Assembly (NCBI GenBank): GCA_903944895.1
Contig: CAJATL010000175.1
Coordinates: 1 to 56,327, forward strand
Direction: 5' to 3'
Length of the DNA: 56,327 bases
From: an uncultured Bacteroidota bacterium
GTDB lineage: Bacteria > Bacteroidota > Bacteroidia > Bacteroidales > 4484-276
Below are positions 1 to 39,274 of the stretch, piece after piece. A model generated the notes under the pieces. It searched no databases. It was not told the DNA's origin and saw only the letters and a program-made list of their open reading frames with translations. Made by a program: the position numbers and the translations under genes. The stretch's first letter is position 1, and each line of letters starts with the position of its first letter.

Positions 1-3000
1 GTGCGCATGCCTCAATAGCCAACGACTGTTTTACCTGCCATAATGGTAATTACAACAGCACCCCAAATACCTGTTTTGCCTGCCACACCGATGATTATAA
101 CCAGACCACCGATCCTAATCACGCATCAGCACAATTCCCGACAGCTTGCGAAGACTGCCATTCACAGACTGCCTGGGAGCCTGCAACCTTTAACCATGAC
201 GGTCAATATTTCCCGATATATTCCGGTGAACACCAGGGAGAATGGGATGCTTGCTCGGATTGCCACACGAATCCTTCAAATTACGCTATCTTTACCTGCA
301 CCACCACCTGCCATCCTCAAGGTGAAATGAACAATGAGCATAACGGCGTTTCAGGATATCAGTACAACAGTGCGGCGTGTTTTGCCTGCCATCCGACAGG
401 AAGTAGCGGCGGGGCCTTTAATCATAATTCATCAAGCTTTCCGTTAACCGGAGCACATATTACTGCTGAATGTGCTGAATGTCATAGCGCTGGTTATGCA
501 GGAACTCCAACCGAATGCCTGGCTTGTCATACTGATGATTTTACCCAGTCAACAAATCCAAACCATAATTCACTTGGTTTTCCTACAGATTGTGCAACCT
601 GCCATACCACAAACCCGGACTGGAAACCGGCTACTTTTACCATCCACAATCAATATTATGCGCTAACAGGAGCACATGCAGCCATTTCGACCGATTGTAA
701 TATTTGTCACGAAGGAAATTATAACAATACCTCAAACCAGTGTTCGGGTTGCCACATTAACAACTACAACCAGTCAACAAATCCAAATCATAGTGCACTT
801 GCAATTCCGACTACCTGCGAAACCTGCCACACCACAAACCCGGACTGGCAGCCGGCCACTTTTGGAATCCATAACCAGTATTACGTTTTGCAGGGTGCGC
901 ATGCCTCAATAGCCAACGACTGTTTTACCTGCCATAATGGTAATTACAACAGCACCCCAAATACCTGTTTTGCCTGCCACACCGATGATTATAACCAGAC
1001 CACCGATCCTAATCACGCATCAGCGCAATTCCCGACAGCTTGCGAAGATTGTCATTCACAGACTGCATGGGAACCTTCAACGTTTAATCACGACGGGCAA
1101 TATTTCCCGATATATTCCGGTGAACACCAAGGAGAATGGGATGCTTGCTCTGATTGTCACACTAATCCTTCAAACTACGCCATCTTTACCTGCACCACAA
1201 GTTGCCATCCCCAAGGTGAAATGAACAATGAGCATAGCGGCGTTTCAGGATATCAGTACAACAGTGCGGCTTGTTTTGCCTGCCATCCTACAGGAAGTAG
1301 CGGCGGGGCATTTAACCATAATTCATCAAGCTTTCCGCTGACCGGAGGACATATTACCATCGGATGTGCTGAATGTCATAGTAACGGTTATACAGGAACT
1401 CCCACCGAATGTCTGGCTTGTCATGATGATGATTTTAACCAGACAACAAATCCAAACCATAATGCGCTTGGTCTTCCTACCGACTGTACTACTTGTCATA
1501 CCACCAACCCGGACTGGAAACCGGCTACTTTTGGGATTCATAATCAATTTTACCCGCTTACCGGTGCTCATGCCACTGTTGCCAGTGATTGTTTTGCCTG
1601 TCATGCAGGAAATTATAATAATACCGCAAACCAGTGTTCGGGTTGTCACATCAGCAATTATAACCAATCAACTAACCCGAACCATAGTGCGCTGGCAATT
1701 CCAACAACCTGCGAAACCTGCCACACCACAAACCCTGACTGGCAGCCGGCCACTTTCGGAATCCATAACCAGTATTACGTTTTGCAAGGTGCTCATGCTT
1801 CGATAGCCAACGATTGTTTTACCTGCCATAACGGTAATTACAACAGCACGCCAAATACCTGTTTTGCCTGTCACACCGATGATTATAACCAGACTACTGA
1901 TCCTAATCATGCATCAGCACAATTCCCGACAGCTTGCGAAGATTGCCATTCACAGACTGCCTGGGAACCTTCAACGTTTAATCACGACGGGCAATATTTC
2001 CCGATATATTCCGGTGAACACCAGGGAGAATGGGATGCTTGCTCTGATTGCCACACGAATCCTTCAAATTACGCTATCTTTACCTGCACCACCACCTGCC
2101 ATCCTCAAGGTGAAATGAACAATGAGCATAACGGCGTTTCAGGATATCAGTACAACAGTGCGGCTTGTTTTGCCTGCCATCCTACAGGAAGTAGCGGCGG
2201 GGCTTTTAATCATAATTCATCAAGCTTTCCGTTAACCGGAGCACATATTACCGTCGAATGTGCCGAATGTCACAGTAACGGTTATACAGGAACTCCCACC
2301 GAATGTCTGGCTTGTCATGATGATGATTTTAACCAGACAACAAATCCAAACCATAATGCACTCGGTCTTCCTACCGATTGTATAACCTGCCATACCACAA
2401 ATCCCGACTGGAAACCGGCAACATTTACCATCCACAATCAATTTTATGCACTAACAGGTGCGCACGCAGCTATTTCGACCGATTGTAATATTTGTCACGA
2501 AGGAAATTATAACAATACGCCAAATCAGTGTTCGGGCTGCCATATCAACAACTACAACCAGTCAACAAATCCAAATCACAGTGCACTGGCAATTCCAAAC
2601 ACCTGCGAAACCTGCCATACCACAAACCCCGACTGGCAGCCGGCTACCTTTGGAATCCATAACCAGTATTACGTTTTACAGGGTGCGCATGCCTCGATAG
2701 CCAACGACTGTTTTACCTGCCATAACGGTAATTACAACAGCACCCCAAACACCTGTTTTGCCTGTCATTCGTCCGATTACAACCAGACTAATGATCCGCC
2801 TCATGCTTCGGCACAATTCCCGACAGCTTGCGAAGATTGTCACACTCAAAATGCCTGGGAGCCTTCAACCTTCAATCACGACCAGCAATATTTCCCGATT
2901 TACTCGGGTGAGCACGATGGTGAGTGGGATGCATGCTCGGATTGCCACACGAATCCTTCAAACTACGCCATCTTTACCTGCACCACTAGTTGCCATCCAC

Positions 3001-3098
3001 AAGGCGAAATGAACCAGGAGCACAACGATGTTTCCGGATATCAATATAATAGCGTTGCCTGTTTAAATTGTCATCCGGACGGGAATGGTGGCAAGCGA
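1..3098. repeat. Tandem 894-bp coding repeat (about 3.5 copies)
   Basis: The same junction, beginning with the codons for MNNEH or MNQEH, recurs at 327, 1221, 2115 and 3009, exactly 894 bases apart. Bases 1 to about 128 match 895 to about 1022 almost perfectly. The last unit is the most diverged. Such near-identity at DNA level suggests recent duplication or gene conversion. The window itself starts inside a copy, so the copy number could be larger or affected by assembly. Confidence 0.95.
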
Positions 3099-3116
3099 AT
3101 GTTAATACAAGATTAA
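3..3116 (+). CDS. Giant multiheme c-type cytochrome, 5' end missing
   Basis: The frame is open from the first bases of the window, so only the last 1,037 residues are visible; the first ATG, at 327, is internal. I count 38 CXXCH and 4 CXXXCH heme-binding motifs, 42 in all. The protein consists of a 298-residue unit present three times in full, with partial units at both ends. Each unit divides into four sub-repeats of about 75 residues, each with three heme motifs and three further histidines (in PNH, IHN/FNH and GAH/GEH contexts), which suits bis-histidine ligation. The chain ends 14 residues after the last CXXCH, with no membrane anchor or type IX sorting domain. Multiheme cytochromes of this kind are exported and carry electrons across the periplasm or outer surface. 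The outer-membrane barrel gene starts 7 bases downstream. The signal peptide and N-terminus lie outside the window. Confidence 0.93.
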   Translation, partial: AHASIANDCFTCHNGNYNSTPNTCFACHTDDYNQTTDPNHASAQFPTACEDCHSQTAWEPATFNHDGQYFPIYSGEHQGEWDACSDCHTNPSNYAIFTCTTTCHPQGEMNNEHNGVSGYQYNSAACFACHPTGSSGGAFNHNSSSFPLTGAHITAECAECHSAGYAGTPTECLACHTDDFTQSTNPNHNSLGFPTDCATCHTTNPDWKPATFTIHNQYYALTGAHAAISTDCNICHEGNYNNTSNQCSGCHINNYNQSTNPNHSALAIPTTCETCHTTNPDWQPATFGIHNQYYVLQGAHASIANDCFTCHNGNYNSTPNTCFACHTDDYNQTTDPNHASAQFPTACEDCHSQTAWEPSTFNHDGQYFPIYSGEHQGEWDACSDCHTNPSNYAIFTCTTSCHPQGEMNNEHSGVSGYQYNSAACFACHPTGSSGGAFNHNSSSFPLTGGHITIGCAECHSNGYTGTPTECLACHDDDFNQTTNPNHNALGLPTDCTTCHTTNPDWKPATFGIHNQFYPLTGAHATVASDCFACHAGNYNNTANQCSGCHISNYNQSTNPNHSALAIPTTCETCHTTNPDWQPATFGIHNQYYVLQGAHASIANDCFTCHNGNYNSTPNTCFACHTDDYNQTTDPNHASAQFPTACEDCHSQTAWEPSTFNHDGQYFPIYSGEHQGEWDACSDCHTNPSNYAIFTCTTTCHPQGEMNNEHNGVSGYQYNSAACFACHPTGSSGGAFNHNSSSFPLTGAHITVECAECHSNGYTGTPTECLACHDDDFNQTTNPNHNALGLPTDCITCHTTNPDWKPATFTIHNQFYALTGAHAAISTDCNICHEGNYNNTPNQCSGCHINNYNQSTNPNHSALAIPNTCETCHTTNPDWQPATFGIHNQYYVLQGAHASIANDCFTCHNGNYNSTPNTCFACHSSDYNQTNDPPHASAQFPTACEDCHTQNAWEPSTFNHDQQYFPIYSGEHDGEWDACSDCHTNPSNYAIFTCTTSCHPQGEMNQEHNDVSGYQYNSVACLNCHPDGNGGKRMLIQD

Positions 3117-4758: not shown

Positions 4759-4761
4759 AAA

Positions 4762-4830
4762 GGCAGTAGGCAGTGGGCAGTGGGCAGTGGGCAGTAAGCA
4801 GAAGGCAGTGGGCAGTGGGCAGTAGGCAGT
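4762..4830. repeat. Heptanucleotide microsatellite
   Basis: About ten imperfect copies of the 7-bp unit GGCAGTG/GGCAGTA directly follow the barrel gene. No coding role is apparent. Confidence 0.85.
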
Positions 4831-4863
4831 TGGGAACAAGTGGTAGAGGGGATGGTTAAGCGG

Positions 4864-5250
4864 GATTCCTAAATGGGGATGATAGTTTCTTAAATGCGGA
4901 CGTAAGTTTCCTAAGTGCGGATGAAAGTTTCCTGAATGCGGATGCAAGTTTCTTAAATGCAGATGAAAGTTTCCTGAATGCGGATGTTAGTTTCCTGAAT
5001 GCGGATGCAAGTTTCTTAAGTGCGGATATGAGTTTCCTGAATGAGGATATGAGTTTCCTGAATGAGGATATGAGTTTCCTGAATGAGGATATGAGTTTCC
5101 TGAATGAGGATGTGAGTTTCCTAAATGTGGTTGTGAGTTTCCTAAATGCGGATGTGAGTTTCCTAAATGCGAATGCTGTTTTCCTAAATGTGGATGTGAG
5201 TTTCCTAAATGTGGATGTGAATTTCCTAAGTGCGGACGTGAGTTTCCTTT
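4864..5250. repeat. 21-bp minisatellite, about 18 units
   Basis: Units of the form GTTTCCTGAATGCGGATGTGA repeat with a strict 21-bp period. Three consecutive units around 5040-5100 are identical, so the array is young or still changing. Because 21 is a multiple of three, long frames stay open on both strands (a SFLNEDM-type repeat on the plus strand, a PHLGNSH-type repeat on the minus strand). I regard these as by-products of the repeat and not as genes. Confidence 0.9.
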
Positions 5251-6378: not shown

Positions 6379-7455
6379 CTATTTTCCTGATTTCCTTCTG
6401 TTGTCTTCTTTGCATAACAATTGGCAATTTACCGCACTTGTTTTACCTCCTTCGTGCCAAGGGGTAATATGGTCGGCTTCCATACCGTATATTTCAAAAG
6501 GTTCATTACACACAGAACAAAATCCTTGTTGTCGTTCGTATGCTTCGCGTTTTTGATTATCGCTGAATGCACGAATGTTTAAACATTTCTCTTTACGTGT
6601 TAAAACATATTCGTAAATACCTTTTTTGTTCGTAACATCTTCGTCCTGCATTAATTTTGAAATTTCTTCTTCAAGTTTTTTATGGTCAAAACTTTTGCCT
6701 TTAAATTCGTTGTAAAGAAAACCCCATTGAATACCTTTCATCTCTTTTCGATACTTCGGAAATGTAGCTTTAACCCAATTTATGACACTTTGAAAATACA
6801 ACCAAAGTTCGTTTGCGTTAGGGTCGTGTTGATGATTTGACATATAGACTTCGATATTCCCTTTAGAAATCCAATCGATGACAGTTTCAAAATACTCCTG
6901 ACGATTTGCTGAACCGCTTAAATATTCATCTCCTATTTTAGGCCGATTATTTTTAGAGAAATAGCGTTTTGCATCGGAAACCCAGGAACCAGAATAAACA
7001 GCATTTCGCAGTTCCTGGTCGGTTAGTTTTTCGCCTGCGATGTTGATGGTTCTAAACCATTCCAAGCGTTCGCTGTCGGTACCACTGCATAAATACACCA
7101 TTAGTTTGTAATTGAGTATTTGCTCTTTTTCGTTGTTTTGAAGATTGTGAAAATATCTAAAAAAGTATGCAAAATCCCCTATGACGTATTGACAAATTGA
7201 AATGGTGCGTTGTTGACCATCAATGATTTCGAAACTACCATCATCACGAACCGCCCAATACATTACATTTAAAGGAAAATCTTTAGTAATTGTGGTAATT
7301 ACGGCATCTCTTTGTTTGTCTTTATAAATAAATTCACGTTGGTAAGGTGGGCGGATGTCTAATTTGCCACCAAAGCCAACAACTCCGTTTTCTTCGTTGT
7401 CCTGGTAGGCGTTAGTTAGGTCTCTGACAGTAATTTCTTTTAATTCTATATTCAT
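6379..7455 (-). CDS. DUF262 (ParB-like) and HNH endonuclease protein
   Basis: The 358-residue protein starts with a DUF262 domain, with YQREFIY at about 38-44 and the hallmark DGQQR at 79-83. It ends in an HNH nuclease: CSVC at 313-316, an ADH core at about 327-329, an Asn/Cys pair near 343, and a second cysteine that completes a zinc knuckle. DUF262 proteins such as GmrS use the DGQQR motif for nucleotide-dependent restriction; the HNH domain cuts DNA. The start ATG overlaps the stop of the upstream methylase (ATGA), so the two are co-translated. The best reading is the nuclease half of a restriction-modification pair. A type IV-like enzyme that attacks modified DNA is less likely beside a methylase. 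Confidence 0.85.
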   Translation of the reverse strand: MNIELKEITVRDLTNAYQDNEENGVVGFGGKLDIRPPYQREFIYKDKQRDAVITTITKDFPLNVMYWAVRDDGSFEIIDGQQRTISICQYVIGDFAYFFRYFHNLQNNEKEQILNYKLMVYLCSGTDSERLEWFRTINIAGEKLTDQELRNAVYSGSWVSDAKRYFSKNNRPKIGDEYLSGSANRQEYFETVIDWISKGNIEVYMSNHQHDPNANELWLYFQSVINWVKATFPKYRKEMKGIQWGFLYNEFKGKSFDHKKLEEEISKLMQDEDVTNKKGIYEYVLTRKEKCLNIRAFSDNQKREAYERQQGFCSVCNEPFEIYGMEADHITPWHEGGKTSAVNCQLLCKEDNRRKSGK

Positions 7456-8492
7456 AATTTTTTATTTTTAATTAAAAGTCTAGCGTATGTAGATTTGTAA
7501 TTATCGCCTATTTTTATTGCGCCACGTCTGTTTAAATCACCAGGATTTGGAACATCATTATTTGTATAAATTTTAGTTTTAAGGCCTGAGTCATTTTCCC
7601 TGTCAGTAATTCCAAGAATTTCAAACTGTTCAGGATTGTGCTTATCAAGAAAAGTGATTGGAACACCCATCGCACCCTTAAAGTCAATTGGAATTTCAGT
7701 AACCTTACTTACTTCAATTGCATCATAATTGTCATATTTGGGATACTTTTCAGGAGTATACGTTTTATATAAAATTAAATCCTCGTGACGTTTTGATAAA
7801 TCAAGGTTTGTAAACCAATACACGCTACCCATACTGAAATACTTTTGACTATTTTCTATTTTAATTCTTGTTTCTGTTTCAATATCATAATGGTCAGGAA
7901 CTTTAAACCATTTCGTTCCGCCATTATCTACACCTGTCCAAATTTTATTTTCTTTTACTAATTTGAAAATTTCTTTATAAGTTAAGTTGTTTTGGTTGCC
8001 AATGATTAGAAATTTTTTGTCGTATTCAATTAATTGGGCTACATATTCTCTGAATAATGAAAAAGGTGGATTGGTTACAACAATGTCGGCTTGTTTTAGT
8101 AGTTCAATTGATTCTTGAGATCGAAAATCACCATCTCCTTTTAATTGTTTAATTCCAATTTCTTCTGGGTTTGGAATATTGTCGCCGTTTTTATCTCCAT
8201 TATATTCTAAATAAATCGCTTTTTCAGATTTGTGGTCGCTAAACAAATCCATATTTTGATTTTTATAGCATGTAGCAATCAATTTTTTAAGCTCCAACTT
8301 CTCAAAGTTGAAAGAAAAATAATGAAAGAAATTACTGACACGTGGGTCATCACAATTGCAAAAAACGACTTTGTCTTTAAAATGGGTTTTGTAGTGTCTC
8401 AACTCTTTTTCAATGTCGGTGAGTTCGGTATAAAACTCATCGTTTTTTCCTGCTTTTGCTTTTGTTAGATTATTATTTAAAGATTTCGCCAT
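7452..8492 (-). CDS. EcoRI-family adenine-specific DNA methyltransferase
   Basis: The 346-residue protein is about the size of M.EcoRI and carries the family marks: an N-terminal NDEFYT (17-22), a VVFCNCDDPRVSNFF stretch (about 42-56), and the amino-methyltransferase motif NPPF at 141-144 inside VVTNPPFSLFREY. Such enzymes transfer a methyl group from S-adenosylmethionine to N6 of adenine. It is the first gene of a two-gene minus-strand operon, with a 4-base overlap with the DUF262-HNH nuclease. It would protect host sites from that nuclease. The target sequence cannot be read from the DNA; GAATTC is only the precedent of the family. Confidence 0.88.
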   Translation of the reverse strand: MAKSLNNNLTKAKAGKNDEFYTELTDIEKELRHYKTHFKDKVVFCNCDDPRVSNFFHYFSFNFEKLELKKLIATCYKNQNMDLFSDHKSEKAIYLEYNGDKNGDNIPNPEEIGIKQLKGDGDFRSQESIELLKQADIVVTNPPFSLFREYVAQLIEYDKKFLIIGNQNNLTYKEIFKLVKENKIWTGVDNGGTKWFKVPDHYDIETETRIKIENSQKYFSMGSVYWFTNLDLSKRHEDLILYKTYTPEKYPKYDNYDAIEVSKVTEIPIDFKGAMGVPITFLDKHNPEQFEILGITDRENDSGLKTKIYTNNDVPNPGDLNRRGAIKIGDNYKSTYARLLIKNKKL

Positions 8493-18135: not shown

Positions 18136-19419
18136 ATGAAGGCAAAAATTATTTTATGGTCAAGGGCAACCCTTAGTGGAGAATATTTATTAAAACTTCG
18201 ATTGAGTGAAGGTGACAATAACAAGTACCTTTTGACAGGGATAAGCATACCAAAATCAAAATGGGATTCTGATAAGCAACAATTAAAAGTACTTGCACCA
18301 CCACGAAAAAAAGATGTTAAAACTTTGCAGCTTTATCAGGATTATCTAAATTTAAAGAATACACTAAATTCTATTGTCGGAAAATATGAAGCAATGATTC
18401 AAAGCTTGGCGAAGGAAGGCAGATCAGTAACGATTGACCAACTTATTAGCATGGTGGAAAATCCTGTTAAAAAAACCACCGTTCACAGCTATTTTAAATT
18501 GTTAATTGACAACTTTAAGACAGCGCAAAAAATCGGACAGGCCACCGTTTACAAATCCACGTTGGACAGCTTAAAGAAGTTTCATAAATCAGATATGAAT
18601 TTTCATGATATTGACCTACCATTTTTGAGACGATATGAGACCCATTTACGCAAAAAGGGATTAAAAGATACTACCATATCACTTTATTTTAGAACGTTGC
18701 GAGCGGTGATTAATTCAGCTATTGGTGATCACTTCGCACGCAAAACAGATTACCCATTTGGGAAGAAATCGGATAACAGTACTTTCACAGTATCGAAGTT
18801 TGACGATAAGACCAGGAAGAGGGCGTTAACTATCGATCAGATAAAACAGATTGAAGCATTGACAGAAATCGAAGGCGAAGCGTTAACACCCGATCAGGCT
18901 ACAGCAAGAGAATATTTTATGTTTACTTACTATTGTGCTGGTATCAATTTTACCGATATTGCAAAATTACGTTGGACTGATTTTGATGGTACCCGGATTA
19001 CCTACATTAGAACCAAAACCCATGCAGAAATAAAAACTTACTTATTGCCATTTGCAAAAGAAATGATTTTGAAGCATCGTTTCGATTCAGGCATTGATCA
19101 GGAAAATTATATTTTTCCGATATTAAACAGACATATTCACATTACGCAACAACAAATTGAAAACCGGATTCATAAGAAATTAGGACAAATGAATGTAGCT
19201 TTAAAGCAAATTGCCAAAGCTTGTAATATTGCCGAAGAGGTAAGCGGGTATCATGCAAGACATAGTTTCATTACCCATGCAGCGCAATCCGGCAAAATAA
19301 CACCGTTTGACCTGCAAACAATGGTTGGACATACTGACATTAAAACTACCATGATTTACTACCAAGACAAAGATCAGGATTTAAAAGACGAATTAATGAA
19401 AAAAGTAATGGGATTTTAA
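18136..19419 (+). CDS. Tyrosine recombinase (integrase) of the element
   Basis: The 427-residue protein has an arm-binding N-terminal region, a SAM-like core-binding domain (about 112-200, YFKLLIDNFKTAQKIGQAT) and a C-terminal catalytic domain. Visible catalytic residues are Arg279 (AKLRW), the HARH box with Arg375, His399 (VGHTD) and the nucleophile Tyr408 or 409 (MIYYQ). It would cut and join the att sites in the tRNA gene. The gene lies 168 bases inside attL, as usual for tRNA-targeting elements, and has its own promoter and terminator. Full length for the Bacteroidota phage-integrase family, with no sign of decay. Confidence 0.95.
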   Translation: MKAKIILWSRATLSGEYLLKLRLSEGDNNKYLLTGISIPKSKWDSDKQQLKVLAPPRKKDVKTLQLYQDYLNLKNTLNSIVGKYEAMIQSLAKEGRSVTIDQLISMVENPVKKTTVHSYFKLLIDNFKTAQKIGQATVYKSTLDSLKKFHKSDMNFHDIDLPFLRRYETHLRKKGLKDTTISLYFRTLRAVINSAIGDHFARKTDYPFGKKSDNSTFTVSKFDDKTRKRALTIDQIKQIEALTEIEGEALTPDQATAREYFMFTYYCAGINFTDIAKLRWTDFDGTRITYIRTKTHAEIKTYLLPFAKEMILKHRFDSGIDQENYIFPILNRHIHITQQQIENRIHKKLGQMNVALKQIAKACNIAEEVSGYHARHSFITHAAQSGKITPFDLQTMVGHTDIKTTMIYYQDKDQDLKDELMKKVMGF

Positions 19420-30043: not shown

Positions 30044-31999
30044 ATGGGATATATTAAATTCGACAAAAGCCAGCTTATTAATCTCGAATATTCATTACGC
30101 CGGGAACTTCTTCGGACCAACAGGGCAGGCGCTTTTTCCACTTCAACAATTGTAAACTGCAACACCAGGAAATATCACGGTTTGCTCATAGTGCCGCAAC
30201 CGCAATTTGGAAATGCACCACACATTCTTCTGTCATCATTGGATGAAACGGTAATTCAACGTGAAGCTGAATTTAACCTTGGGATTCACAAATACGAAAA
30301 CAATATTTATTCCCCCCGCGGACATAAATATATTATGGATTTCGAAAGTGAGCCTTTTCCAAAAATTACTTACCGTGTTGGCGGTGTTATCCTCGAAAAG
30401 GAGATGTTTTTCTCCTCCAACGAAGATATGATGATCTTTAAGTACACCCTGATCGACGCACATTCTCCAACAACTTTGAGGTTCAAACCGTTTCTGGCAT
30501 TCCGGAGCATTCATGCACTTTCAAAAGCAAATATCGACTGTAACAAAAAATACGAGCCGGTTACCAACGGAATAAAAATTGCCATGTACGAGGGCTATTC
30601 GCCGCTTTATATTCAGTTTTCGAAAGATGTTGAATACACCCATGTTCCCGACTGGTACTACAATCTGGAATATCCATACGAAAAAGAACGTGGCTACGAT
30701 TGCCTCGAGGATCTTTATGTTCCTGGCTTCTTCGATATACCAATCAAAAAAGGTGAGTCGATTATGTTAGTTGCCGGGACATCCGAAAGTAACCCTGCCC
30801 TTTTAAAGACTAAATTTACCGACGAAGTTAAAAAACGTATTCCGCGTAATAATTTCGAAAATTGCCTGCTTAATGCAGCACAACAATTTATTGTAAAGAA
30901 GGCCGATAAAACTCAGATAATCGCCGGTTATCCATGGTTTGGGCCTGTTGGCCGGGATACTTTTATCGGGATGCCTGGTTTGTTGCTTACTCAGGGTGAC
31001 GTTAAAACTTATGTTTCGGTGCTCGATTCGATGATCGCCGACATGAAAGGACCATTTTTCCCGAATGTCATCCTCGATAACCGCATCGAATACGACGCAG
31101 TGGATACTTCGCTATGGTTTTTTTATGCTTTGCAAAAATTAGCCGAATTTACTGGTGACAGCGCCAAAATCTGGAAAGATTATAAAAATGTCATCAAAAA
31201 CATCCTCGAATCCTATCGCGAAGGAACCTGGTACAACATTAAAATGGACGAAAACGGTCTTTTATTTGCCGGTGAAACAGGAAATGCGCTTACGTGGATG
31301 AACGCTATTATCGGTGACAAACCTGTTACCCCACGAATTGGTTTCCCTGTTGAGGTAAACGCACTCTGGTATAATGCAATCAAATTCAGCCTTGAACTGG
31401 CACGTAATGCTAAGGATTCTGCTTTTACAGGAAAATGGAAGGAATTGCCGGAGAAAATTGAAAAGTCATTTATCGAAAATTTCTGGGATGAAAAAAGAGG
31501 TTATTTAGCCGATTACACAAATGGCAATTTTAAAGATTGGTCGGTGAGGCCAAACCAGGTCTTTGCTATTTCGCTTCATTACTCCCCTCTGAGCCAGCTC
31601 CAGCAGAAACGAACGATGGACGTTATCGAGAAGGAATTACTCACACCACGTGGTTTGAGAACATTGGCCCCAAAAAACATCAGGTACAAAGGTGTTTACC
31701 GCGGTAATGTCGAAGAGCGGGATTTAGCTTATCACAACGGTTCGGTTTTACCATGGCTGTTTGGCGCTTTTGCTGAAGCCTATTTAAAAATTTACGGAAA
31801 AGGCGGGCTTTCGATCGTGACCAACCTTTACAAGAGTTTTGAAACCGAAATGCAGGAATATGGCATCGGGACAATTTCAGAACTTTTTGATGGCGACCCG
31901 CCACATTATCCATCCGGAGCCATTTCTCAGGCTACTGCTGTTGCTGAATTGATCAGGGTAAATGAGATGATTAAGAAATTTGACGGAGCAAAGAAATAA
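30044..31999 (+). CDS. Glycogen debranching enzyme (GH133, amylo-1,6-glucosidase)
   Basis: The 651-residue protein has the bacterial debranching-enzyme N-terminal domain (LLRTNRAGAFSTSTIVNCNT, RKYHGLLI) and a C-terminal (alpha/alpha)6 catalytic domain from about residue 275. The latter includes GYPWFGPVGRDTFIGMPGL, DTSLWFFYALQKL and ELFDGDPPHYPSGAISQATA. These residues form the GH133 active site that releases glucose from alpha-1,6 branch points. It is the first gene of a four-gene operon for alpha-glucan storage, followed after 25 bases by a glycosyltransferase. It acts in the cytosol; no signal peptide. Confidence 0.93.
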   Translation: MGYIKFDKSQLINLEYSLRRELLRTNRAGAFSTSTIVNCNTRKYHGLLIVPQPQFGNAPHILLSSLDETVIQREAEFNLGIHKYENNIYSPRGHKYIMDFESEPFPKITYRVGGVILEKEMFFSSNEDMMIFKYTLIDAHSPTTLRFKPFLAFRSIHALSKANIDCNKKYEPVTNGIKIAMYEGYSPLYIQFSKDVEYTHVPDWYYNLEYPYEKERGYDCLEDLYVPGFFDIPIKKGESIMLVAGTSESNPALLKTKFTDEVKKRIPRNNFENCLLNAAQQFIVKKADKTQIIAGYPWFGPVGRDTFIGMPGLLLTQGDVKTYVSVLDSMIADMKGPFFPNVILDNRIEYDAVDTSLWFFYALQKLAEFTGDSAKIWKDYKNVIKNILESYREGTWYNIKMDENGLLFAGETGNALTWMNAIIGDKPVTPRIGFPVEVNALWYNAIKFSLELARNAKDSAFTGKWKELPEKIEKSFIENFWDEKRGYLADYTNGNFKDWSVRPNQVFAISLHYSPLSQLQQKRTMDVIEKELLTPRGLRTLAPKNIRYKGVYRGNVEERDLAYHNGSVLPWLFGAFAEAYLKIYGKGGLSIVTNLYKSFETEMQEYGIGTISELFDGDPPHYPSGAISQATAVAELIRVNEMIKKFDGAKK

Positions 32000-32024
32000 T
32001 TATAAACTGAATAAGGAATTATAG

Positions 32025-33305
32025 ATGAAAGTATTGATGTTCGGCTGGGAGTTTCCGCCACATATCACAGGGGGTTTAGGGACTGCTTGCTATGGTCTTA
32101 CCAAAGGTTTGGCCAAGCAAAACGTAGATGTCATCTTCGTGGTTCCTAAGGCTTATGGCGATGAAGATCAGTCAGCAGTGAGGCTTGTAAATGCAAGCGA
32201 TTTGATTATTGACACCGCTGATACCGATTACCAGGAATTCTGGAAAAAAATTACCTACATGGAAATTGGCTCCAACCTGATTCCTTATGTTGGTCCTGAA
32301 GAATTTAAACGCTATGCCGAGGAAAATAAACTCGACGAAGTTACCCTCGACGAAAAAGTGTATCGTACAAAATTTACCTTTTCAGGGAAATATGGAAAGG
32401 ACCTGTTGGCAGAAGTTTCGAGGTATGCCCTGATTGGCGCCGGAGTAGCTCAAAAGTCAGATTTTGATATTATTCATGCTCACGACTGGTTGACGTATCC
32501 TGCCGGCATTGCCGCTAAAAAAGTTACCGGAAAACCGCTGGTGGTGCACATGCACGCTACCGAATTCGACCGCTCGGGCGAAAATGTAAACCAGGAAGTT
32601 TACGAAATCGAGAAAAAGGGTATGGAGGAAGCCGATCGCGTAATCACAGTAAGTAATTTTACCCGCGCTATCGTCATCGAAAAATACGGAATCAACCCTG
32701 ATAAGATTTTTACGGTTCACAACGCCGTCGATCCAAGCGATACCGAGGTTGGCGAATACCAGCGCCACGTTAAGGAAAAAGTAGTTACTTTCCTTGGCAG
32801 GCTTACCTTCCAGAAAGGCCCTGAATATTTTATCGAAGCTGCTGCGATGATTTTGAAGCGCGACAAAAACGTTCGCTTTGTCATGGCTGGCACCGGCGAT
32901 ATGATGAATAAAATGATAAAACGTGCTGCCCAGCTTCACATTTCATCAAACTTCCATTTCACCGGTTTCTTAAAAGGTAGTGATGTGGATAAGATGTTTG
33001 CCCTGAGTGATGTTTTTGTGATGCCATCGGTTTCTGAACCTTTTGGTATTGTGCCTTTGGAAGCCATGCGCTCTAATGTTCCGGTGGTAATCTCGAAACA
33101 ATCGGGCGTTTCCGAAATCCTGAAACACGCTCTAAAAGTTGACTTTTGGGATATCAACGGCCTTGCCGATGCGATCTGGGGCCTTCTGCACTACGATTCG
33201 TTGTATAAAATGTTCATCAAATACGGTAAAACCGAAGTTGACAACCTGAAATGGGATAACGCAGCTTTCAAGGTTACCGAAGTGTATAATTCGTTGTTTA
33301 AATAA
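32025..33305 (+). CDS. GT4-family glycosyltransferase of glycogen operon
   Basis: The 426-residue protein has a GT-B fold: an N-terminal domain beginning MKVLMFGWEFPPHITGGLGT (the nucleotide-sugar synthase-like glycine loop) and a C-terminal GT4 domain. The latter has TFLGRLTFQKGPEYFIEAAA, the donor-binding E-x7-E region SEPFGIVPLEAM, and ISKQSGVSEILKHAL. In this operon it most likely elongates an alpha-1,4-glucan from ADP- or UDP-glucose. It differs from the glycogen-synthase part of the fusion protein downstream, so the operon has two kinds of synthase-like enzyme. Confidence 0.88.
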   Translation: MKVLMFGWEFPPHITGGLGTACYGLTKGLAKQNVDVIFVVPKAYGDEDQSAVRLVNASDLIIDTADTDYQEFWKKITYMEIGSNLIPYVGPEEFKRYAEENKLDEVTLDEKVYRTKFTFSGKYGKDLLAEVSRYALIGAGVAQKSDFDIIHAHDWLTYPAGIAAKKVTGKPLVVHMHATEFDRSGENVNQEVYEIEKKGMEEADRVITVSNFTRAIVIEKYGINPDKIFTVHNAVDPSDTEVGEYQRHVKEKVVTFLGRLTFQKGPEYFIEAAAMILKRDKNVRFVMAGTGDMMNKMIKRAAQLHISSNFHFTGFLKGSDVDKMFALSDVFVMPSVSEPFGIVPLEAMRSNVPVVISKQSGVSEILKHALKVDFWDINGLADAIWGLLHYDSLYKMFIKYGKTEVDNLKWDNAAFKVTEVYNSLFK

Positions 33306-33340
33306 AATTTACTAACCGAAAATAATAAATCAAGATAAAG

Positions 33341-34918
33341 ATGAGGTCAATTTGCTTTTATTTCCAGGTTCATCAACCATTCAGGCTTAGAACTTACCGT
33401 TTTTTCGATATTGGCGAAAATCATTATTATTACAATGATTTCGAAAACAGCCATATTTTGCGCCGGATAGCTCAGCGCAGCTACCTGCCGATGAACGATT
33501 TGCTCCTAAAACTCATGAAAAAGCACGGTAAAGCTTTTAAAGTTACTTTTTCGATAACAGGAACTGCCCTTGAGCAATTTCAGGCTTACGCCCCCGAAGT
33601 TATCGAAAGCTTCCAAAGGCTCGCTGCTACAGGAAATGTGGAGTTTCTTGCCGAAACTTATGCACATTCGCTTGCATCGGTAAAGAGCAAAACTGAATTC
33701 AGGAAACAAGTCGAACTTCACAGCAAAAAAATTGAAGAACTCTTTGGCCAAAAGCCAACAGTTTTCAGAAATACGGAGTTGATTTATTCCGACGAAATTG
33801 GCGAAATGGTTTACGACCTCGGTTATAACACCATGCTCACCGAAGGTGCACGCCACATTTTAGGTTGGAAAAGCCCCAACTACATGTATTGCAACGCCCG
33901 CAATCCGAAATTAAAAGTTTTGCTGAAAAATTACAGGCTCAGCGACGATATCGCCTTCAGGTTTTCGCACCACGGATGGCCCGAATGGCCGCTTACCGCC
34001 GATAAATTTGTTGGCTGGCTTAACGATGTTGACGCCAAGGAAGAAGTTGTAAACCTATTTATGGATTATGAAACCTTCGGTGAACATCAATGGAAAGAAA
34101 CCGGCATTTTCGATTTTATGTCGGCATTGCCAGGCAAAGTTTTGAAGGATTCGCCATATAAATTTGCAACACCTTCTGAGCTTGGAAGCACCATGCAGCC
34201 GGTTTCAGCGATTCACGTGCAGCATCCGATTTCATGGGCCGACGAAGAACGCGATCTTACCGCCTGGATTGGCAATGAAATGCAGGACGAAGCCATCGAC
34301 AACCTTTATCAGCTTGAGGAAAAGGTCGCAAAATGCAGCGATCCTGAAATTCAGAAAGACTGGCACAATCTGCAAAACAGCGACCATTTTTACTACATGT
34401 GCACCAAATGGTTTTCTGACGGTGATGTGCATAAATATTTTAATCCGTATAATTCACCTTACGAGGCATTTATCAACTACATGAATGTGCTTTCCGATTT
34501 TATCATCCGTGTAAACCAGAATTGTGGAGCTGAGGGTGGTGAATATCACAAACTCATCGAAAAGACCGAAGAATTAGGCAAAGAAATCGAATCGGTTGCC
34601 CGGAATACATTTAAAAAGACTGCGGCTAAAGTAAAAGCCGTTTTCGAAGATGAGAAAGGAAAAACCTATACGTTTGATGAAATTAAAGACATGTCGAACG
34701 AAAGTTTGAAAAAGCTCGTCAAAGAGGTGGATATCGAAAACTGGGTTTACGCGCTCAAAGATGCCGGTGAAGAATTTACAGAAAAAATTGTTCCCAATTT
34801 CACTAAAAAGGCAGCAAAGGAATACGATAAGCTCAAAGAGGAAATAAAAATTCGTAAAACCGACATTGAGGCAAGTCGCAAAAGCATCAGTGAAAAAATT
34901 TCAAAATTATTTTCATAG
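33341..34918 (+). CDS. GH57-family alpha-glucan hydrolase or branching enzyme
   Basis: The 525-residue protein starts with the GH57 signature FYFQVHQPFRLR. It continues with an EFLAETYAHSLAS stretch, the nucleophile region FRNTELIYSDEIGEM and the acid region FMDYETFGEHQW. The catalytic part ends near residue 400. A C-terminal region of about 110 residues (SVARNTFKKTAAKVKAVFED to the end) is charged and coiled-coil-prone. GH57 members include alpha-amylases, 4-alpha-glucanotransferases and branching enzymes; this subgroup is usually called alpha-amylase. It likely shapes the glycogen made by the neighbouring synthases. Confidence 0.9.
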   Translation: MRSICFYFQVHQPFRLRTYRFFDIGENHYYYNDFENSHILRRIAQRSYLPMNDLLLKLMKKHGKAFKVTFSITGTALEQFQAYAPEVIESFQRLAATGNVEFLAETYAHSLASVKSKTEFRKQVELHSKKIEELFGQKPTVFRNTELIYSDEIGEMVYDLGYNTMLTEGARHILGWKSPNYMYCNARNPKLKVLLKNYRLSDDIAFRFSHHGWPEWPLTADKFVGWLNDVDAKEEVVNLFMDYETFGEHQWKETGIFDFMSALPGKVLKDSPYKFATPSELGSTMQPVSAIHVQHPISWADEERDLTAWIGNEMQDEAIDNLYQLEEKVAKCSDPEIQKDWHNLQNSDHFYYMCTKWFSDGDVHKYFNPYNSPYEAFINYMNVLSDFIIRVNQNCGAEGGEYHKLIEKTEELGKEIESVARNTFKKTAAKVKAVFEDEKGKTYTFDEIKDMSNESLKKLVKEVDIENWVYALKDAGEEFTEKIVPNFTKKAAKEYDKLKEEIKIRKTDIEASRKSISEKISKLFS

Positions 34919-34946
34919 ATGCTAATAATCAAATTATTATAAAAAG

Positions 34947-34977
34947 CCTAAGGCTATCTTATCAAGGTAGCCTTTTT
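34947..34977 (+). terminator. Terminator or attenuator inside the glycogen operon
   Basis: AAGGCTA and TAGCCTT form a stem followed by T residues, between the GH57 gene and the fusion gene. It may lower expression of the last gene. Confidence 0.6.
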
Positions 34978-35026
34978 CTGTTTTTAATGAGATAAGAAAA
35001 GTATATACTAATAATAACTACATTAA

Positions 35027-38000
35027 ATGTCAAAAATAGTACTAAACAAGCCGAATTATATTTTTGAAACAAGTTGGGAAATTTGCAACATGATCGGTGG
35101 AATTTATACCGTCATCTCTACCAAAGTTCCCCTGTTAAAAAGTGAATATGGTGATAATTATATCACTCTCGGGCCGGATGTGTGGAAAGAAACCCGCAGC
35201 AATCCTGATTTTATCGAGGATCGCAGCCTTTTTGCGGCCTGGCGTGAGAAAATGTCAAACGAAGGACTCCATTTCAGGATAGGCCGCTGGAATATCGAAA
35301 GCCAGCCTATCGCCATCCTGGTTGACTTTACTGCACTTTTTGCCGAGAAAGACAAGATTTTCTTTCACCTCTGGGAGAAATTTAAAGTCGATTCACTCAG
35401 CGGGCAGTGGGATTATATCGAACCAACCCTCTTTGGCATCGCCGTTGGCAAAGTTATCGAAAGCTTTTATGCGTTCTATCTTTCACCTTCCGATAAGGTG
35501 GTTGCGCATTTTCATGAATGGATGACCGGGACAGGCGTGCTTTACCTAAGTGAACATCTGCCGCAGGTTGCAACAGTTTTTACCACCCATGCCACCACCA
35601 TTGGCAGGGCAATCGCCGGAAATGGTTTGCCGCTTTACAGCAAGATCGACCTTTACAATGGTGAGGACATGGCGCGTCACTTCGGCGTAATTTCTAAATA
35701 TTCACTCGAGAAAAGCGCTGGAATATATGCAGATGCTTTTACAACCGTTAGTGCGATTACAGCCGTGGAAACCGAGAAATTGCTGAATAAAAAAGTTGAT
35801 TTTATTACGCCAAATGGTTTTTCGGCTTCGTTGATTTATGACAATGAAACGTTCGAAAAAAAGCGGATCGAATCGCGTAAAAACCTTCTTGGAGTTGCTG
35901 AGGCCATGTTCAGTCAACAAATCGATCCGGAGGCTTTTTTGGTTATCACCAGTGGCAGGTACGAATTTCGTAACAAAGGTATTAACCTTTTTATTGATGC
36001 CCTCGGCCGCATAAGCCGCGAAAATCCTACCCGGCAGATTATTGCCTTTCTTAAAATACCGGCAAATCACATCGGCCCAAGGCAGGAATTGATCGACCGG
36101 ATGAGCATGCCAAATTTTGAAAAGCCTACCTCAGATGAGTTTTTAACCCATGATTTGTACGACGTAAACCACGATGACATTCTCCGGAAAATCCGTGATA
36201 ACAACCTTCATAATCTGCCTTCCGATAAGGTAAAAATAATTTTTGTGCCAGCTTATCTCAATGGCAACGATGGAATATTTGAACAGACCTATTATGATCT
36301 TCTCCCGGGTTTTGATCTTACCGTTTTCCCATCCTATTATGAGCCATGGGGCTACACCCCGCTCGAAAGTATTGCTTTCAGGGTTCCCACAATAACCACT
36401 ACCCAGGCAGGTTTTGGCAGATGGGTGGATTCGGATTTTAAAGATAATCATCCAAGCGTTTATATTGCCAAAAGGCTTGACGATAACGATGGTGATGTAA
36501 TTTCAGAACTTGTTCTGGCCATCAGAAAATATGAAAATCATTCGTCCGCACAGGTTGTAAAAGTGCGTGAAGACGCTTATCGCATTGCCAGTGAGGCCGC
36601 GTGGCAAATATTTATTTCGCATTATCGCGAGGCTTATTCGTTTGCCCTCTCGAAAGTTGACGAAAGGATTGATACTTTTCCTGCAAGGTTTATTTTAGAG
36701 AAAAAAGTACAAATGGCCGAAGCGCCTGTGCAGGACATGCCTGTCTGGAAAAGGGTGGTGATCGAGCCGAGTATCCCCAAAAAGCTGAAAGGCCTGCAGG
36801 AACTTTCACGAAATCTTTGGTGGTCGTGGAATTTTAAAGCAACCGAACTTTTTAAATCGATAGATCCCGTAAAATGGGAGCAAACACAGCAGAATCCCAT
36901 CATGCTGCTCGATTCGCTCAATATTTACCAATGGCGGGCGCTGGAGAAAGATGCCAGTTTTATTGAGCGTTACAACGAGACTAACGATAAATTCCAAAAA
37001 TATATCGATGAAGGGAAAAACAAACCTTCGAGCCAGATCGCCTATTTTAGCATGGAATACGGACTTCATCAATCGCTGAAGATTTATTCGGGCGGATTGG
37101 GGATTTTGGCAGGCGACTACCTGAAAGAATGCAGTGATTCGAACGAAAATCTTGTGGCCATTGGCCTTGTTTACCGGTTTGGATATTTCCAGCAAAGCAT
37201 TTCGCTCTTCGGCGATCAGGTTGCTGATTATCAGCCCCAGAATTTTTCGCAACTGCCCATGGTAAAAGTCTTTGATGACGAAGGCGAGCAATTGAAAATC
37301 CGCATCGGTTTGCCGGGCCGGACATTATATGCCCGGGTGTGGCGCGCCGGCGTTGGCAGGATTCATCTTTATCTTTTGGATACCGATTTTGATGAAAATG
37401 CTGATGTCGATCGCAGGATAACCCACCAACTTTATGGGGGAGATTGGGAAAATCGCCTTAAACAGGAAATTTTGCTTGGCGTAGGCGGTATTCGTCTGAT
37501 TCATGCACTCGGCCTCAAGCCTGATATCTATCACAGCAACGAGGGACATTCGGCATTTATCGGTCTCGAAAGGCTGCGTTATCTGATCCAGGAACACAAA
37601 CTAAACTTCCACCAGGCTCACGAAGTTGTGCGTTCGTCAACACTTTTTACAACCCACACACCGGTTCCCGCAGGGCACGACGTTTTTAACGAAGATTTGC
37701 TTCGAACCTATTTCCCGCATTATCCCGAAAGGCTCAACATCACGTGGAATGAATTTATGAACCTCGGTAAATTTGTGGATAACGATCCTAACGAGAAGTT
37801 TTCGATGAGCGTGCTGGCTGCAAAAATGTCGCAGGAAATTAATGGTGTAAGCCGTATCCATGGCCGCGTTTCGCAGGAAATGTTTGCCCGTCTTTATGAG
37901 GGTTATTACCCTGAAGAAACGCAGATTGGCTATGTTACAAATGGCGTTCACCTGCCAACATGGGCTTCCAAACCCTGGAAACTCATGTATAAAAAAACGT

Positions 38001-39274
38001 TTGGTGAAGAGTACAAATGGAATCAACTGGATTTTGGGATGTGGAAAAAAATCCAGCATGTTGCCGATAAAGATATCTGGGAAACCCGCAAGGTGCTCAA
38101 AAAGGAGCTTATCGAATACGTGAAGGAACGGCTGAAAAACGAAATGACCCGTCGCCAGGAAAATCCTAAACTCGTTATTAACACCCTCGAAGCCATCAGT
38201 GAAGATGCGCTGATTATTGGGTTTGCCCGGCGTTTCGCTACCTATAAACGCGCCAAACTGTTGTTCTCAAATCTCGACAGGCTGGCAAGCATCCTCAACA
38301 TCACCGGAAAGCCGCTTTTGTTCCTGTATGCCGGAAAAGCCCATCCCAACGATGGTGCAGGTCAGGACCTGATTAAAAGGATTATGGAAATTTCGAGGTC
38401 GGAGCGGTTTATCGGTAAAGTGATTTTTATTGAGAATTACGACATGGATCTGGCGCACAAACTGATCCCCGGCGTCGATATCTGGCTTAATACTCCAACC
38501 CGTCCGCTCGAGGCTTCCGGTACAAGCGGCGAAAAAGCGGTGATGAACGGTGTTGTGAATTTATCGGTACTCGATGGCTGGTGGGCCGAAGGCTACAAAG
38601 AAAATGCTGGTTTTGCCATTCAGGAAGCCCGCACTTACGCCAACCAGCAATTCCAGGACGAACTCGATGCCGAGATCATCTACAACCTTTTTGAGGATGA
38701 GATTCTGCCTTTGTATTTCGAGAAAAACAGTGATGGCGTTTCAACGAAGTGGATTAAGTATATTAAGAATACCATTTCTGAAGTGGCTCCTCATTTTACG
38801 ATGAAAAGGATGCTCGAAGATTACAAGAAGCAATATTATAATAAGCTTATCGATCGCTCCAAAATGATGCAGAGCGACAATGCAAAGTTAGCTGGAGAAT
38901 ATGCTGCATGGAAATTGCACATGCGCGAAAAATGGCATGATATCAAGCTTGAGAAACTCATGGTGCCCGACTCGACACAAACACCGCTTACTCTCGAAGA
39001 TATTTTCTCAACAGAAGTAACCATTTTCACCAACGGGATTTCGGCCGAGCACATCGGCATGGAAATTCTCTTTGGGAAAAAGGAAGGCGGCCATGTGAGC
39101 AAGATTTCTTTCAGCAAGCAGATGCCTTTGGTTTCGGTTAATGGAAAAAGTGCCCGGTTTGCTGTTGAGATTCCTGCCTTCCAGGCCGGATCGTTCAATT
39201 ACGCTTTCAGGATTTATGCAAAACACGAACTAATCCCACACCGCCAGGATTTCTGCCTGGTGAAATGGGTATAG
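35027..39274 (+). CDS. Glycogen synthase-glucan phosphorylase fusion
   Basis: The 1,415-residue protein joins two enzymes. Residues 1 to about 565 are a GT3/GT5-like glycogen synthase (FETSWEICNMIGGIYTVIST, HFHEWMTGTGVL, then FPSYYEPWGYTPLESIAF). From about residue 582 (PKKLKGLQELSRNLWWSWN) the chain is a GT35 alpha-glucan phosphorylase of the short bacterial type, with SMEYGLHQSLKIYSGGLG, HSNEGHSAF, and the cofactor motif EASGTSGEKAVMNG, where Lys1170 would bind pyridoxal phosphate. A beta-rich tail of about 110 residues ends the protein. Synthase and phosphorylase work in opposite directions, so the fusion implies tight local control. Fusions of this kind are known in Bacteroidota. Confidence 0.92.
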   Translation: MSKIVLNKPNYIFETSWEICNMIGGIYTVISTKVPLLKSEYGDNYITLGPDVWKETRSNPDFIEDRSLFAAWREKMSNEGLHFRIGRWNIESQPIAILVDFTALFAEKDKIFFHLWEKFKVDSLSGQWDYIEPTLFGIAVGKVIESFYAFYLSPSDKVVAHFHEWMTGTGVLYLSEHLPQVATVFTTHATTIGRAIAGNGLPLYSKIDLYNGEDMARHFGVISKYSLEKSAGIYADAFTTVSAITAVETEKLLNKKVDFITPNGFSASLIYDNETFEKKRIESRKNLLGVAEAMFSQQIDPEAFLVITSGRYEFRNKGINLFIDALGRISRENPTRQIIAFLKIPANHIGPRQELIDRMSMPNFEKPTSDEFLTHDLYDVNHDDILRKIRDNNLHNLPSDKVKIIFVPAYLNGNDGIFEQTYYDLLPGFDLTVFPSYYEPWGYTPLESIAFRVPTITTTQAGFGRWVDSDFKDNHPSVYIAKRLDDNDGDVISELVLAIRKYENHSSAQVVKVREDAYRIASEAAWQIFISHYREAYSFALSKVDERIDTFPARFILEKKVQMAEAPVQDMPVWKRVVIEPSIPKKLKGLQELSRNLWWSWNFKATELFKSIDPVKWEQTQQNPIMLLDSLNIYQWRALEKDASFIERYNETNDKFQKYIDEGKNKPSSQIAYFSMEYGLHQSLKIYSGGLGILAGDYLKECSDSNENLVAIGLVYRFGYFQQSISLFGDQVADYQPQNFSQLPMVKVFDDEGEQLKIRIGLPGRTLYARVWRAGVGRIHLYLLDTDFDENADVDRRITHQLYGGDWENRLKQEILLGVGGIRLIHALGLKPDIYHSNEGHSAFIGLERLRYLIQEHKLNFHQAHEVVRSSTLFTTHTPVPAGHDVFNEDLLRTYFPHYPERLNITWNEFMNLGKFVDNDPNEKFSMSVLAAKMSQEINGVSRIHGRVSQEMFARLYEGYYPEETQIGYVTNGVHLPTWASKPWKLMYKKTFGEEYKWNQLDFGMWKKIQHVADKDIWETRKVLKKELIEYVKERLKNEMTRRQENPKLVINTLEAISEDALIIGFARRFATYKRAKLLFSNLDRLASILNITGKPLLFLYAGKAHPNDGAGQDLIKRIMEISRSERFIGKVIFIENYDMDLAHKLIPGVDIWLNTPTRPLEASGTSGEKAVMNGVVNLSVLDGWWAEGYKENAGFAIQEARTYANQQFQDELDAEIIYNLFEDEILPLYFEKNSDGVSTKWIKYIKNTISEVAPHFTMKRMLEDYKKQYYNKLIDRSKMMQSDNAKLAGEYAAWKLHMREKWHDIKLEKLMVPDSTQTPLTLEDIFSTEVTIFTNGISAEHIGMEILFGKKEGGHVSKISFSKQMPLVSVNGKSARFAVEIPAFQAGSFNYAFRIYAKHELIPHRQDFCLVKWV

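Follow-up and report, generated by a model that had tools for sequence, protein, structure and literature searches.

A giant repeat cytochrome of Bacteroidota: a probable electron wire whose length seems to evolve in three-heme steps

The closest known system to the one described here is PCC3, a predicted porin-cytochrome conduit of Proteobacteria with repeat-rich molecular wires, among them examples of 63 and 85 hemes (He et al. 2017, PMC5566968). That study already predicted this architecture, with as many as 85 hemes, so that giant cytochromes made of such repeats are not new. The inner-membrane protein of PCC3 and PCC4 carries WX3HX13H on both TM3 and TM5 and SGXXG on TM4, motifs that have been likened to the helices that bind heme in ferric reductases and NADPH oxidases (PMC5566968). 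In Burkholderiales, 24- and 49-heme cytochromes occur with an OmbB-like porin, and the larger cytochrome varies between close relatives by insertion or deletion of CXXCH-containing domains (PMC7399161). For Bacteroidota, excerpts of two reports mention cytochromes with more than 100 heme motifs in activated sludge (PMC11495043) and novel PCCs of Bacteroidetes in a humic bog (PMC6344600). In the literature searched, we found no paper describing the Bacteroidota cluster presented below, its flavoprotein or the three-heme rule of its giant cytochrome.

The window, that is, the whole stretch of 56,327 nucleotides analysed, is an entire contig (C175) of a 7.17-Mb, 424-contig assembly of an uncultured member of the Bacteroidales, and the reading frame at its left end is open (Table 1). 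Recounting the heme motifs of this frame gave the 42 that a preliminary description had reported in 1,037 residues, comprising 38 CXXCH and four CX3CH; the 38 are far above the roughly 0.5 CXXCH expected by chance from the cysteine and histidine content. The period is exactly 298 aa (894 nt) with 12 hemes, again as described earlier, and the frame contains three full units plus 143 residues. Each unit does consist of four three-heme sub-repeats, but these are not all of 75 residues as had been stated, the second having 73 (75+73+75+75 aa). The heme-to-heme spacing follows a 15-25-35 cycle, with one 15-27-31 module in each 12-heme unit. The three histidines per sub-repeat beyond those of CXXCH, also noticed previously, proved to be a family trait, with exactly that number present in 237 of the 259 regular modules across the family, in which methionine is rare. 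The partial unit ends in the family's conserved C-terminal module (YSGEH.GEW...CX3CH...CHPDG), whose last heme motif starts 18 residues before the end of the protein. Pfam matches of the frame to DUF3960, Tsi3 and DnaJ_CXXCXGXG were taken as effects of its cysteine-rich composition.

Table 1. Features of the cytochrome locus at the left end of the window
Feature	Position	Strand	Remark
Terminal 137 bases, identical to the end of contig C125	1..137	+	
Giant multiheme cytochrome, C-terminal 1037 aa, 42 heme motifs	3..3116	+	5' open at contig edge
12-heme unit 1	3..896	+	
Sub-modules of unit 1	3-227, 228-446, 447-671, 672-896	+	second holds CX3CH
12-heme unit 2	897..1790	+	
12-heme unit 3	1791..2684	+	
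Partial unit 4 (two modules)	2685..3116	+	
Outer-membrane beta-barrel, 544 aa	3124..4758	+	N-terminal signal sequence, C-terminal Phe

Between full units the identity is 91-96% at the protein level and 89-92% at the DNA level; for the last partial unit it is about 82% and 78-79%, respectively. Pairwise comparison of the full units gave dS values of 0.36-0.58 and dN/dS of 0.05-0.09, the differences being mainly synonymous, and identity along the 12-heme unit was uneven, reaching 100% in some spots and falling to 73% in others. Since dS is this high, a fresh tandem duplication is ruled out, and we read the units as older copies that purifying selection has held similar, with local gene conversion among them being likely. 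The mostly synonymous and patchy nature of the differences also argues against a simple duplication introduced by assembly.

The N-terminal part of the gene lies on a second contig, C125, which ends inside the same repeat and carries 695 aa beginning MRNLSSLIVFLAISLNLFAQSPHG. The exact 137-mer shared by the two contigs was present, in the whole assembly, at these two ends only, and internal copies were 85-99% identical to it. Joining the contigs directly gave an in-frame protein of 1687 aa without internal stop and with 67 heme motifs, a minimum under this join, as more whole units could sit in the gap. The N-terminus has a Sec-type signal peptide, by which the cytochrome is predicted to be secreted; no lipobox, lipid anchor or other surface signal was found in its sequence. 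A genome of the same genus (G003) contains N- and C-terminal pieces of the cytochrome next to the same neighbour genes, each piece ending at a contig edge within the gene.

With the contigs joined, the operon is complete on both sides of the giant cytochrome. Upstream, on C125, are genes for a 273-aa membrane protein, a 448-aa flavoprotein and a 20-heme cytochrome. A motif search showed that the membrane protein contains WX3HX13H twice together with SGXXG, as do nearly all of its relatives. The flavoprotein has two 4Fe-4S motifs and a pyridine-nucleotide/FAD domain (PF13738, PF07992); in its family, two CX5CX3CP and GxGxxG were present in 59/59 members and GGGxSA in 56/59, a pattern to be expected of an NAD(P)H- or ferredoxin-linked point at which electrons enter on the cytoplasmic side. 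Downstream, the barrel gene begins 7 bases past the cytochrome gene. Beyond residue 139, its low-confidence model (pLDDT 53) had a succession of about 22 strands, and the best fold matches were to outer-membrane barrels, e.g. MOMP, AlgE and the OprD family. In Blast comparisons, gene content and gene order were the same at loci of relatives, including the barrel downstream of the giant cytochrome, except that in more distantly related members of the phylum the flavoprotein gene sits after the barrel. Of 63 loci, 49 had the membrane protein, the flavoprotein and the barrel together, the remainder being mainly interrupted by contig ends, and the barrel gene adjoined the giant cytochrome at nearly all loci.

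Several other features were noted in this genome. Just past the barrel gene, at 4761-5248, is a 7-base array (AGGCAGT, 10 copies) followed by a 21-base array of 18 copies (TTCCTAAATGCGGATGATAGT), across part of which both strands are open. Further along the window are a GmrSD_N/HNH protein beside an EcoRI-type adenine methyltransferase (PF13651, E 7e-138) at 6379-8492 on the minus strand, probably a restriction-modification pair; a tyrosine recombinase with phage integrase domains at 18136-19419 on the plus strand, possibly part of a mobile element; and glycogen genes at 30044-39274 on the plus strand, encoding a debranching enzyme and a single chain of 1415 aa with glycogen synthase and phosphorylase domains. 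More cytochrome c7-like matches occur elsewhere in the assembly (L132-L135), several on contig C335 and others, including a 928-aa frame, on contig C356.

The Bacteroidota locus closely resembles PCC3 in its described motifs, heme counts and gene order. Specifically, both have an inner-membrane protein of about 300 aa in which WX3HX13H is present twice and SGXXG once; a predicted periplasmic cytochrome, with 21-27 hemes (about 21) in PCC3 and 20, rarely 23, in Bacteroidota; a variable, repeat-rich larger cytochrome, with 10-85 hemes in PCC3 and 10-70 in Bacteroidota; and an adjoining outer-membrane barrel, which for Bacteroidota is assigned from gene order and the low-confidence model. The order of membrane protein, periplasmic cytochrome, extracellular cytochrome and porin is that of Slit_1446-1449 (Gallionellaceae survey, PMC10734462). 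However, the Bacteroidota form differs in having the conserved Fe4S/FAD/NAD(P) flavoprotein and the three-heme step, and its barrel is of about 540 aa, whereas PCC3 porins have up to 42 predicted strands. The Burkholderiales system likewise has two dense large cytochromes ahead of a porin, but belongs to another phylum, and a three-heme rule is unreported there (PMC7399161). The giant secreted multiheme cytochromes and PCC-like clusters described in the excerpts on activated sludge and the humic bog are similar by that description and come from the same phylum (PMC11495043, PMC6344600); the excerpts state numbers and say nothing of modules or of the anatomy of the clusters.

The GSU1996-type cytochromes of Geobacter are alike in that a single chain of theirs has 12 hemes, distributed over four three-heme domains; nevertheless, GSU1996 is periplasmic and its domains each contain one His-Met heme (PMC10138318), in contrast to the three extra histidines per module here. 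Membership in this GSU1996/c7 nanowire family was rejected, as the best genome-wide scores against TIGR04257 were 26.7, 23 and 22.8 bits (cut-off 40), the cytochrome frame itself had no match to this profile at E 0.01, and the ligand pattern differs. The order of heme spacings in c7 also differs from the 15-25-35 order of the giant-cytochrome modules. Similarly, the MtrA/DmsE decaheme family was rejected on TIGR03508 scores of 35, 27.7 and 52.3 bits (cut-off 192.2). The filaments of OmcS, OmcE and OmcZ are also long heme chains proposed to lie outside the cell, but they are polymers of small cytochromes, whereas the giant cytochrome is one covalent chain, and a PDB sequence search gave no match to these or any other cytochrome filament. 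With one unit and the family profile as queries, no useful solved relative was found in the PDB (best cytochrome, E 0.36). An AlphaFold2 model of the last 441 residues, built from a nine-row alignment, had a pLDDT of 40 and was discarded.

Members of the giant-cytochrome family share a common plan, in which an N-terminal cap (spacing about 36-16-16-34) is followed by a variable number of 15-25-33/35 modules and, in nearly all members, by a 15-26/29 module and a short tail. Giant cytochromes of the phylum have 13-70 hemes, with small forms of 10, and the number of hemes was 1 mod 3 in 50 of 53 complete frames, six frames cut by contig ends having been left out. Two of the three exceptions, at loci L064 and L120, look frame-shifted and the third, at L067, is a short second copy. 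Such second giant-type cytochromes, mostly shorter than the first and near it, were seen at L059, L067, L068, L069 and L119 (13, 12, 19, 16 and 19 motifs, respectively). The duplicated block varies by lineage, being one module (73 aa), two (143-151 aa), three (224 aa) or four (295-298 aa), and congeners were found to be 6 or 12 hemes apart (31/43, 31/37, 28/34 and 40/46, the pair 28/34 having been assigned by gene position and not by cap signature). Since the size differences among relatives are almost always whole numbers of three-heme blocks, this probable electron wire seems to change its length stepwise in evolution. The 20-heme cytochrome, by comparison, hardly varies: of 49 cases, 45 had 20 motifs and four had 23. 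A periplasmic span of fixed width together with a free outer end would give this combination of a constant partner and a variable giant cytochrome, and the contrast is our main argument for placing the latter outside the cell; its surface location is suggested by this length variation together with the adjoining barrel. The earlier proposal of a covalent, extendable heme wire thus gains on extendability, relatives differing by whole modules, and on context, the protein being predicted to be secreted and its gene belonging to one set with those of a 20-heme cytochrome, a barrel and a b-type-like membrane protein; a wire role is likely.

Using the cytochrome frame as query with strict thresholds, we obtained matches in 4/12 genomes of the family and 23/295 of the order, both counts including the genome under study, and the membrane protein, used as query on 395 genomes drawn from the phylum, had matches in 40. 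The set is carried, for example, by Bacteroidales bacterium HKST-UBA07, with 70 hemes, and in full by the cultured Emticicia oligotrophica DSM 17448 on plasmid pEMTOL02, with 40 hemes. The latter set (L102, 8821-20619) is preceded by a ccsA-type cytochrome biogenesis gene. Emticicia is aerobic, which does not speak for anaerobic metal respiration in this organism. Proteobacterial plasmids (L103-L106 and L110) contain a smaller set, often adjoining metal-resistance or hydrogenase genes, that consists of a 2Fe-2S protein, a membrane protein and a cytochrome of about 255 aa, the membrane protein being 22-27% identical to the 273-aa protein where matched.

We consider it probable, though well short of certain, that the window contains the last part of the variable cytochrome in a PCC3-type trans-envelope electron conduit of Bacteroidota. 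In such a conduit, the heme motifs would carry attached hemes, and electrons would be conducted along a path of five steps. The Fe4S/FAD/NAD(P) protein on the cytoplasmic side would accept electrons of NAD(P)H or ferredoxin and pass them to the membrane protein, whose two WX3HX13H motifs would hold two b-type hemes, much as in the membrane part of ferric reductases and NADPH oxidases; the 20-heme cytochrome would carry them across the periplasm; passage through the outer membrane would be by the 544-aa barrel together with the giant cytochrome's cap; and the tandem three-heme modules would form an external single-chain wire to minerals, humics or other cells. The number of modules would set the length of the wire, and recombination would alter it in whole three-heme steps.

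Energetics are our only reason for preferring outward flow. The same conduit might run inward, with electrons from Fe(II) or another external donor entering at the giant cytochrome, as proposed for PCC3 of iron oxidisers, and we regard this as unlikely but the most serious alternative. Fe(II) oxidation is the role put forward for PCC3 (He et al. 2017), whose expression has been studied in Sideroxydans, and the cultured E. oligotrophica holds the full set; the conserved NAD(P)/Fe4S flavoprotein, however, would ease outward flow energetically, the reduction of NAD(P) from Fe(II) is uphill, and sequence cannot tell direction. It is more doubtful still that the giant cytochrome is a periplasmic electron store, in which more modules would mean more charge. 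Such a capacitor has been proposed for the periplasmic twelve-heme cytochromes of the GSU1996 type (PMC10138318) and is speculated upon for giant Bacteroidota cytochromes in the activated-sludge excerpt (PMC11495043), and it would suit a protein with a signal peptide and no surface anchor. A store in the periplasm is nonetheless difficult to reconcile with the barrel gene adjoining at nearly all loci and with variation in the giant cytochrome beside a 20-heme partner of fixed size, and about 67 hemes at ~1 nm each, if extended, would be too long for the periplasm. We give very little credence to an assembly artefact, i.e. a wrong copy number or repeats collapsed or expanded by assembly: the contig does stop within the repeat, so that the assembly cannot fix the copy number between C125 and C175, but the existence of the repeats is hardly in doubt, with copies 8-11% apart in DNA, mainly synonymously, and uninterrupted single frames of 55, 58, 61 and 70 hemes in other assemblies. 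A detoxifying or terminal reductase (e.g. of selenite or tellurite) in place of a general conduit is just as improbable, as the match of the 20-heme cytochrome to ExtN/ExtO in NCBIfam is weak (about 30 bits, cut-off 200) and no conserved catalytic subunit was seen in the neighbourhood among the loci viewed.

Beyond the outward conduit that we prefer, we tentatively suggest a more specific proposal, in which the number of modules is a fast-changing, recombination-driven setting for how long an extracellular wire made of one molecule is. The alleles of close relatives, and perhaps also those within one population of cells, would then be one or more complete three-heme blocks apart, the cap and terminal module would stay constant, and an NAD(P)H-fed, split module resembling ferric reductase would feed the wire directly.

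If the conduit is real, the family would offer a natural series of 10 to 70 hemes with the same cap and tail, in which conduction could be compared with chain length, and E. oligotrophica would be a cultured carrier for testing conduction. Bacteroidota are usually viewed as fermenters and polymer degraders; a sizeable part of the phylum would then have a dedicated electron conduit, with the length of its outer wire under a simple rule.
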